Assembly (NCBI GenBank): GCA_021323895.1
Contig: JAJPKD010000270.1
Location: forward strand, 1-39,651
Reading direction: 5' to 3'
Source: Acidobacteriota bacterium
Lineage (GTDB): Bacteria > Acidobacteriota > Blastocatellia > Pyrinomonadales > Pyrinomonadaceae
DNA: 39,651 nucleotides
In this document: positions 9,723 to 11,153 of the stretch, piece after piece
How positions within the stretch are numbered: the first letter of the stretch is position 1
Layout of the letters: every line of letters starts with the position of its first letter
Notes under the pieces: model-generated
Databases searched by the model: none
Told to the model about the DNA's origin: nothing
What the model saw: only the letters and a program-made list of their open reading frames with translations
Made by a program: the position numbers and the translations under genes

Positions 9723-9726
9723 AGCG

Positions 9727-9794
9727 GTGACAAGTGACCAGTGACGAGTGACAGGCTATAATGCGTGTTCGACTCGTCAGTTATCACTCGTCAC
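9727..9794. repeat. 7-bp-period repeat forming an inverted element (GTGACNN units)
   Basis: Four tandem units GTGACAA, GTGACCA, GTGACGA, GTGACAG fill 9727-9754. The complementary strand carries GTGACGA, GTGATAA and CTGAC at 9794-9776, so the element can fold on itself. It fills the gap between the M16 and YycJ-like genes, and its loop contains TATAAT (9757-9762). Confidence 0.85.
9757..9762 (+). promoter_or_regulatory. possible -10 hexamer TATAAT inside the repeat loop
   Basis: A perfect TATAAT lies 41 bases before the YycJ-like start codon, in the loop of the 7-bp repeat element. No good -35 hexamer is visible 16-18 bases upstream (the region is GTGACC-like), so this is a weak candidate promoter. 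Confidence 0.25.
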
Positions 9795-9802
9795 AAGCAT
9801 TC

Positions 9803-10627
9803 ATGAAAATTTCTGTACTCGGAAGTGGCTCAACCGGAAACGCAGTGTTGCTGGTTGCTAACGGTACTCGTGTTTTGGTTGATGCTGGTCTGAGCGCGCG
9901 CGAGATTGCGCGCCGCATGGCTTTGCTCGGCGAGGATCCCAACTCGCTCGATGGCATTTTGATTACTCACGAGCATGGCGATCACGCGGGCGGCTTGCGC
10001 GTGCTGATGAAAGATCTCGATTGTCCCGTGTTTGTTTCAGGCAAGACGCGAGAGGCTTACGTTGGTGAGCGACGCAATGTTGCCAGCGACGAGCCGCGGA
10101 GGCGCGCCGATGCTTTGCGCGATCGCACGGTCGAGATAGATTCCGGACGCGACTTTCAGATCGGCAAGATCGAATTTCATCCGTTCACGATCCCGCACGA
10201 TGCCGTGGATAACTTTGGGTTCACAGCCACGCACAACGGCGTGAAGATCGCGACGCTGATGGACTTTGGCCACATCACGACGCTGATCACCGAGCGGTTG
10301 CGAGGCTGCGCGGCGGTCGTGATCGAATCAAACCATTCGCGCGATATGCTCAAGACTGTCGAGCATTATCCGTGGGAACTGAAGCAGCGAATTCTTTCGC
10401 GGCTTGGTCACTTGTCGAATGAAGACGTCGCGGAATGGCTGCTCGATGGCTTTGACGGACAGGCGCGGCACATCGTTTTGGCGCATTTGTCGCAGCGCGC
10501 CAACAATCCTTATCTCGCGAAGATCACCGCTGAGAGCGCTTTGCGCGAACGCGCGCCGCTGTTTCCGGGCGAGACTGAAGTTACGTTGTCATTTCCGAAA
10601 GAACCGACTGCGTGGATCGAAGTATGA
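9803..10627 (+). CDS. MBL-fold metallo-hydrolase, YycJ/WalJ-like
   Basis: Metallo-beta-lactamase-fold hydrolase of the YycJ/WalJ group, which are putative nucleic-acid processing enzymes. The metal-binding motif THEHGDHAGG is at residues 55-64. A downstream metal Asp is in TLMDFGH, and a terminal His is probably in IVLAHLSQRANNP. The start is placed at the ATG at 9803 (MKISVLGSGSTGNAVLL, the family's typical N terminus). An upstream in-frame ATG at 9761 would add 14 residues encoded by the repeat element, and I reject it. Length 274 aa. Its TGA overlaps the ATG at 10624 of the next frame (ATGA), so the two are probably co-transcribed. The substrate cannot be read from sequence. Confidence 0.9.
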   Translation: MKISVLGSGSTGNAVLLVANGTRVLVDAGLSAREIARRMALLGEDPNSLDGILITHEHGDHAGGLRVLMKDLDCPVFVSGKTREAYVGERRNVASDEPRRRADALRDRTVEIDSGRDFQIGKIEFHPFTIPHDAVDNFGFTATHNGVKIATLMDFGHITTLITERLRGCAAVVIESNHSRDMLKTVEHYPWELKQRILSRLGHLSNEDVAEWLLDGFDGQARHIVLAHLSQRANNPYLAKITAESALRERAPLFPGETEVTLSFPKEPTAWIEV

Positions 10628-10630
10628 ATG

Positions 10631-10702
10631 GTGTCAGAAGCCTGCGCGTCAGCAAGGGCCTAATGCGAAAGTTGCCCTCCCTGACGGTCGGGCTTCTGAC
10701 AC
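10631..10702. repeat. imperfect palindromic element (29-bp arms)
   Basis: The arms 10631-10659 and 10674-10702 match at 24 of 29 positions as inverted repeats, starting GTGTCAGAAGCC and ending GGCTTCTGACAC, around a 14-nt loop. The element overlaps the beginning of the lipoprotein gene: the loop contains an ATG (10663) and the right arm encodes the signal-peptide region. Confidence 0.85.
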
Positions 10703-11100
10703 TTTCGTTGCTTTGTTCGTGCAACGCGAGCATGCGCCGCAGCGGAATTCCGGCCGGTGCGCAGGCGGCACTCGATGCGGCGATCGCCGACATCGATGCG
10801 GGACGTTACGATAAGCTTTATCAGGAAGCATCAGACGAATGGCGCAGTCAATCGGCGCTTGAGCAGTCGAGAACTACATTCCAAACTCTGCGCGATCGAC
10901 TTGGAAATGCTCGTGCCCGCAGTTTGCTGACGGCGCGCGAAGAACAAACATCGACTGCGCCCATCGCCGGACACTCGGTCACAGTCGCTTATCAAACGAC
11001 GTTCGATCGCGGCGACGGACAGGAAACCTTCACGCTAATCGAACACGGAGGGCGCTGGGCGCTGGCGAAGTATTACGTGAGTTCGAGCGGACTGAAATAG
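10663..11100 (+). CDS. Small lipoprotein of unknown function
   Basis: Predicted lipoprotein of 145 aa. The ATG at 10663 gives MRKLPSLTVGLLTLSLLCSC: a basic n-region, a hydrophobic core and a lipobox-like LCS-C with the likely lipidated Cys at residue 20. AAGGG lies about 4 bases before this ATG. An alternative start at 10624 overlaps the YycJ-like stop (ATGA) and would add 13 residues. The mature part has a helical segment (AAIADIDAGRYDKLYQEAS) and a beta-rich end (VAYQTTFDRGDGQETFTLIEHGGRWALAKYYV). This resembles NTF2/DUF4019-type accessory domains, but that is only a resemblance. The signal-peptide coding region coincides with one arm of a palindromic repeat. Confidence 0.75.
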   Translation: MRKLPSLTVGLLTLSLLCSCNASMRRSGIPAGAQAALDAAIADIDAGRYDKLYQEASDEWRSQSALEQSRTTFQTLRDRLGNARARSLLTAREEQTSTAPIAGHSVTVAYQTTFDRGDGQETFTLIEHGGRWALAKYYVSSSGLK

Positions 11101-11152
11101 TGAATCGTAAATGGTAACCGCATCTATTTACGATTCACGATTTACTATTCAC
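11100..11152. repeat. 7-bp-period inverted repeat abutting purB
   Basis: Left units GTGAATC and GTAAATG (11100-11113) and four right units TATTTAC, GATTCAC, GATTTAC, TATTCAC (11125-11152) have a 7-bp period. They form an inverted repeat with a perfect 12-bp core (11101-11112 with 11126-11137). The element takes up the whole gap before purB and ends one base before its ATG. Confidence 0.9.
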
Positions 11153-11153
11153 T

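Follow-up and report, generated by a model that had tools for sequence, protein, structure and literature searches.

The window analysed here, a stretch of 39,651 nucleotides from a soil-dwelling Acidobacteriota bacterium of the family Pyrinomonadaceae, carries between yycJ and purB a gene for a predicted lipoprotein (Table 1), which matches the DUF4019 profile PF13211 with an E-value of 8.9e-13 and 49 bits against a cut-off of 26.5. As the first-pass annotation of this DNA had noted, the gene directly follows a YycJ-like gene; this neighbour is syntenic, and the junction between yycJ and the DUF4019 gene is conserved across the Pyrinomonadaceae. The longest yycJ open reading frame begins with an ATG at position 9761, inside a palindrome. 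Most yycJ orthologues align only from residue 14-15 of this frame, and the true yycJ start is probably ATG 9803, the extension 9761-9802 being a repeat artefact.

Table 1. Features at the lipoprotein locus (window coordinates) and open reading frames of the same genome with repeats inside (coordinates within the sequence named).
Feature	Position	Strand	Remarks
yycJ-like metallo-beta-lactamase-fold gene	9803..10627	+	syntenic upstream neighbour; its stop codon is the landmark of the insertion
DUF4019 lipoprotein gene	10624..11100	+	N-terminus MNGVRSLRVSKGLMRKLPSLTVGLLTLSLLCSC; lipobox LCS-C, Cys codon 10720-10722; Pfam PF13211
Likeliest start codon, ATG	10624..10626	+	overlaps the yycJ stop TGA (10625-10627) as ATGA
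Left arm	10631..10659	+	REP-like copy, type GCGCGTNAGCAAGGGC; reads VRSLRVSKG, the predicted basic n-region
Loop	10660..10673	+	14 nt; contains ATG 10663, a possible internal start, absent in G004
Right arm	10674..10702	+	inverted REP-like copy, type GACCGTNAGGGAGGGC; reads PSLTVGLLT in the lipoprotein frame, most of the predicted h-region
ORF with internal repeat, L163	1242..2147	-	
ORF with internal repeat, L018	571..2274		
ORF with internal repeat, L030	2..2242	-	
ORF with internal repeat, L019	1274..2179		
ORFs with internal repeat, L001, L002, L010, L023, L162, L169			

Between the yycJ stop codon and the lipobox lie two inverted arms of 29 nt each, of which 24 positions are complementary, exactly as first annotated for 10631-10702. 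The free energy of the 72-mer, folded as single-stranded DNA, is -24.1 kcal/mol, whereas its 200 dinucleotide shuffles average -9.97 (z -6.2) and not one of them folds as stably; an Rfam scan of the window returned a tRNA as its sole match. Each single arm is in turn imperfectly palindromic (GCCC-ga-CC..GG-ga-GGGC), forming a REP-like unit that folds with -4.8 to -4.9 kcal/mol, only moderately better than its shuffles (z -1.3 to -2.1). Allowing up to three mismatches, the arm motif TCAGAAGCCNGNNNGTNAGNNAGGGC occurs 136 times (71 + 65) in the 4.4-Mb genome, the reversed control only 4 times (1 + 3). This excess identifies the palindrome in the window as a dispersed repeat, as had been proposed, with more than 100 copies elsewhere in the genome. 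Many of the copies form head-to-head pairs separated by a spacer of 14-16 nt, and arms of the types CGCGTNAGCAAGGGC and ACCGTNAGGGAGGGC frequently pair with one another, which accounts for most of the mismatches between the two arms.

Judged from the orthologues, translation of the lipoprotein gene probably starts at ATG 10624 on the yycJ stop codon and not at ATG 10663 within the loop. The orthologues share an NTG over the yycJ stop codon (ATGA, GTGA or TTGA), and of the 33 yycJ-linked orthologues, 21 have this overlapping codon in frame and open up to the lipobox; the same is true of 9 of the 13 that bear a palindrome. In the window, it is ATG 10624, from which the open frame continues through both arms. 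Since the overlap is shared and the loop of the closest palindrome-bearing relative, G004, contains no ATG, both arms are most likely translated, giving MNGVRSLRVSKGLMRK-LPSLTVGLLT-LSLLCS-C. This sequence has the layout of a lipoprotein signal peptide, with MNGVRSLRVSKGLMRK as n-region, LPSLTVGLLTLSLL as h-region and LCS-C as lipobox; all signal peptides in our study are predictions, called by simple sequence rules and not by SignalP. The lipobox is found in nearly all orthologues. It lies outside the repeat, and LSLLCS, part of the h-region and lipobox stretch, is likewise not repeat-derived. The original description of the right arm as the hydrophobic core of a lipobox signal peptide consequently holds for most of the h-region but does not extend to the lipobox. 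The same description had the loop supply the start codon. An in-frame ATG preceded closely by AAGGG does exist there, and MRKLPSLTVGLLTLSLLCSC would be a plausible short lipoprotein signal peptide; the right arm alone would then be coding and the left arm would act as the ribosome-binding region. We regard such a start as unlikely, as the loop ATG is missing in G004 and the conserved start is the NTGA overlap, in frame and open in the proportions given above.

Relatives from the same genus differ in what follows the yycJ stop codon. In G004, whose protein is 85% identical, the same palindrome occurs at the same spacing from the stop, and behind it remains part of a hydrophobic core (PSLTVGLLTLIVAGAILFSAC) of apparently ancestral type, reading IVAGAILFSAC; in the genome of the window, this remnant is mostly lost (PSLTVGLLTLSLLCSC). 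In G006 (61%), a related REP palindrome occupies the same place but is read in a different frame, and an intact, independent core comes after it (LPTLLVVALALVFASC). No palindrome is present in G001, G002 and G005, and the comparison of orthologues called for by the first-pass annotation thus shows palindrome-free genes with ordinary signal peptides of unrelated sequence. Related REP arms occur in the genomes of all six congeners tested, these three included. The series formed by these relatives and the window looks like successive stages of a capture, the order of which we infer from the sequences. One ancestral insertion with a loss in G002 and independent gains both fit the pattern within the genus, and this pattern cannot separate them.

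Across the family, we scored the stretch from the yycJ stop codon to the lipobox for inverted repeats in 37 distinct orthologues, counting a stretch as positive when its palindrome score exceeded those of all 100 of its own shuffles, which keep base composition only. A palindrome was found in 13 of the 37, compared with 1/37 and 2/37 for control stretches of equal length from the mature gene and the end of yycJ, respectively, and its outer arm starts no more than 14 nt from the yycJ stop codon in 12 of these 13. Different families are represented: the REP type of the window, CTTTTGC arrays (G017, G020, G030), CTTCTGC/CTACTGC (G015, G138, G139), AAGCCTC (G007), CTTTGCG (L058), and others. The families counted are dispersed in the genomes concerned. 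Arms of the CTTTT-type heptamer number 677 in G020, 105 in G017, 14 in G030 and none in the genome of the window; CTDCTGC arms are numerous in G138 (443) and G139 (250) and few in G015 (5) and G009 (4); and G007 has 11 arms of the AAGCCTC type, with the palindromes of L040 (G008) and L058 left out of these dispersal counts. Mapped onto a mature-protein tree, palindrome presence requires eight changes (gains and losses counted alike), of which strongly supported branches force at least five. According to the translations, repeat DNA forms the whole or a large part of the hydrophobic core in about ten orthologues (L031, L032, L037, L038, L043, L044, L046, L048, L276, L287); in L036, L040 and L058 a separate core follows the palindrome. 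By these sequence comparisons, the locus is a recurrent target of several unrelated palindrome families. The genomes are mostly metagenome assemblies, in which repeats can cause misjoins, yet the junction recurs in independent assemblies.

Five of these orthologues (L046, L043, L044, L276, L287) come from a supported clade of sister genera in which the palindrome is retained and the heptamer families differ; in some of them, the family at the junction is one that is abundant in the same genome. This suggests turnover of the palindrome, or its conversion in place, within that clade.

Independently of any coding role, the palindrome could serve mainly as an RNA or DNA element after yycJ, be it as a stabiliser of the mRNA 3' end, an attenuator or a brake on coupled translation, so that selection would act on the hairpin and translation would be incidental. 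The strength of the hairpin would suit such a function, as would the position of the palindrome in L036, L040 and L058 and the fact that REPs lie mostly downstream of coding regions, with some within open reading frames (Di Nocera et al., 2013, PMC3733652). Against it speaks that repeat DNA provides the only hydrophobic core in about ten orthologues, and that 20 of the 33 yycJ-linked orthologues have no palindrome, so that the hairpin is not required; we hence judge this explanation to be quite improbable.

A survey of the other repeat copies, which the first-pass annotation had also called for, indicates that capture is rare per copy. Drawn from 100 of the 136 arms, it covered 68 sites in the genome of the window, of which only one or two encode a signal peptide: the window itself and perhaps C62:800 (L170), counted as tentative because it has no clear left arm. 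The signal peptide predicted there (MKSSLFQVIRHKLPSLALGLLTAFAIFAAAPAARAQ, at about 760-850 of L170) resembles the right arm and is read in the same frame. Among the listed sites, most other copies lie outside genes or upstream of starts, as might also be expected here if the palindrome were an ordinary intergenic repeat and the real lipoprotein started after it; this is very improbable, since only six codons separate the right arm from the lipobox cysteine and their sole start-like codon, TTG 10708, would leave four residues before the cysteine, too few for a signal peptide, so that the palindrome is not simply upstream of the gene. A repeat-centred survey of 1.06 Mb of G020 found 2 of about 57 palindromes to encode signal peptides, one of them at the DUF4019 lipoprotein gene itself; it replaced a strict lipoprotein census of 380 kb of that genome, whose six candidates were too few for a genome-wide rate. 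What makes this junction special is probably that the lipoprotein start codon overlaps the stop codon of yycJ, a type of position favoured by REPs; at other genes, the start mostly lies past the palindrome.

Repeats are also found inside genes. Ten open reading frames of the genome of the window (Table 1) carry them with the frame unbroken, and a Pfam domain spans several of the inserts; the products with internal copies or single arms include thymidylate synthase, lactate permease, DnaE (DNA polymerase III alpha), Fapy-DNA glycosylase and an AIR-synthase-like protein, among others. In this behaviour, the elements resemble the Rickettsia palindromic elements (RPEs), which are likewise palindromic repeats lying in frame within genes and translated. 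RPEs, however, occur in another phylum and are described as tolerated inserts, whereas the element in the window forms part of a predicted export signal.

With REPs and GTAG-tagged REPs (PMC3733652), the repeats share imperfect palindromic units of 20-40 nt, high copy numbers, inverted dimers, a frequent position after stop codons and an occasional one within open reading frames. They differ from the GTAG type in that the arms in the genome of the window carry GAAG in 102 of 109 cases and GTAG in none, GTAG-bearing copies being present in congeners such as G002 and G006, and in that they are not associated with RAYT genes. Y1_Tnp (RAYT-like) genes number 4 in the genome of the window and 8-25 in each congener (G001-G006); in the flanks examined, the repeat stood beside none of the 4 own loci and 1 of 20 congener loci. 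The cited paper on GTAG-tagged REPs (PMC3733652) nowhere uses the term 'signal peptide'. The closest precedent is YPO1552 of Yersinia, whose predicted signal peptide is formed in part by a MITE and whose homologues have unrelated signals (Delihas, 2007, PMC2759123; reviewed in PMC2229807). There, a single repeat (RU-2, about 168 bp) contributes to a putative exported protein and is conserved in two close species; in the present case, the lipoprotein is conserved and syntenic, the palindromes come from several unrelated families, the events recur across genera and both arms are probably translated. A search of the open-access literature gave no account of signal peptides derived recurrently from palindromes. 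The recurrence at one conserved gene, the participation of several families, the apparent intermediate stages and the probable translation of both arms appear to be new. Cyanobacterial heptanucleotide STRR sequences are tandem arrays of heptamers dispersed in the genome. The arrays in the Pyrinomonadaceae, similar by description only, differ from these in forming inverted pairs.

Purine-rich codons specify mainly K, R, E and G, and pyrimidine-rich codons L, F, S and P. Where the outer arm of a palindrome is purine-rich, either strand reads purine-rich first and pyrimidine-rich second, and a heptamer array repeats one seven-residue peptide in any frame. Using thresholds that were set once and not tuned, we searched for a net charge of at least +2 followed by a hydrophobic 9-mer (mean Kyte-Doolittle value of at least 1.6). 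Such an order was encoded in 34 of 342 strand-frames (9.9%) of 57 heptamer palindromes, corresponding to 34 of the 35 open ones, and in 7 of 156 (4.5%) of 26 REP palindromes, compared with 111/6840 (1.6%) and 29/3120 (0.9%) in length-matched random genomic DNA for the heptamer and REP controls, respectively. The basic-then-hydrophobic order is thus 5-6 times commoner in palindromes than in random DNA; the reverse order was never encoded by the palindromes and occurred 103 (heptamer control) and 19 (REP control) times in random DNA.

The data lend themselves to a model that we hold to be highly probable, namely that a dispersed palindrome was captured as the n-region and most of the h-region of a predicted lipoprotein signal peptide, and that the same occurred repeatedly in other genera, there with palindromes unrelated to this one. 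Two REP-like units in inverted orientation would have inserted a few bases past the yycJ stop codon. As the lipoprotein gene presumably starts on this stop codon, probably with translational coupling, DNA inserted there would become the N-terminus of the lipoprotein. The left arm would yield basic residues and the right arm hydrophobic ones, in the order of a signal peptide, and because the arms read in this order and in frame the gene would have survived the insertion, which may have been tolerated rather than beneficial. With the n-region and most of the h-region now supplied by the palindrome, the ancestral core would have been largely lost, a part persisting in G004, and the ancestral lipobox kept. 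The capture as an export signal originally proposed for this palindrome is supported by its other copies and by the unrelated signals of palindrome-free orthologues, in a form in which the lipobox is ancestral, both arms are probably coding and the event is recurrent.

Such a capture would provide a concrete route from selfish or neutral repeat DNA to functional protein sequence, and one gene offers a natural series (no palindrome, a palindrome beside an intact core, a palindrome as core) along which it may be traced stepwise. The suggested reason is that reverse-complement arms tend to read charged and then hydrophobic, and that signal peptides tolerate nearly any such pattern. A wider conjecture, which we see as evenly balanced, is that inverted repeats in general hold a supply of ready-made signal peptides, the heptamer arrays giving the basic-then-hydrophobic order in any open frame, and that in the Pyrinomonadaceae, genes whose start codon lies on an upstream stop codon repeatedly rebuild their export signals from whichever palindrome family is active in the genome.

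Palindromes of other types occupy the flanking junctions at 9724-9800 and 11101-11153, with GTGACNA-like and GTGAATC/GTAAATA heptamer arrays, so that three successive gene gaps around the lipoprotein gene each hold a different palindrome. At 1566-1642, the window also contains a perfect tandem array of the heptamer TTCTGAC.
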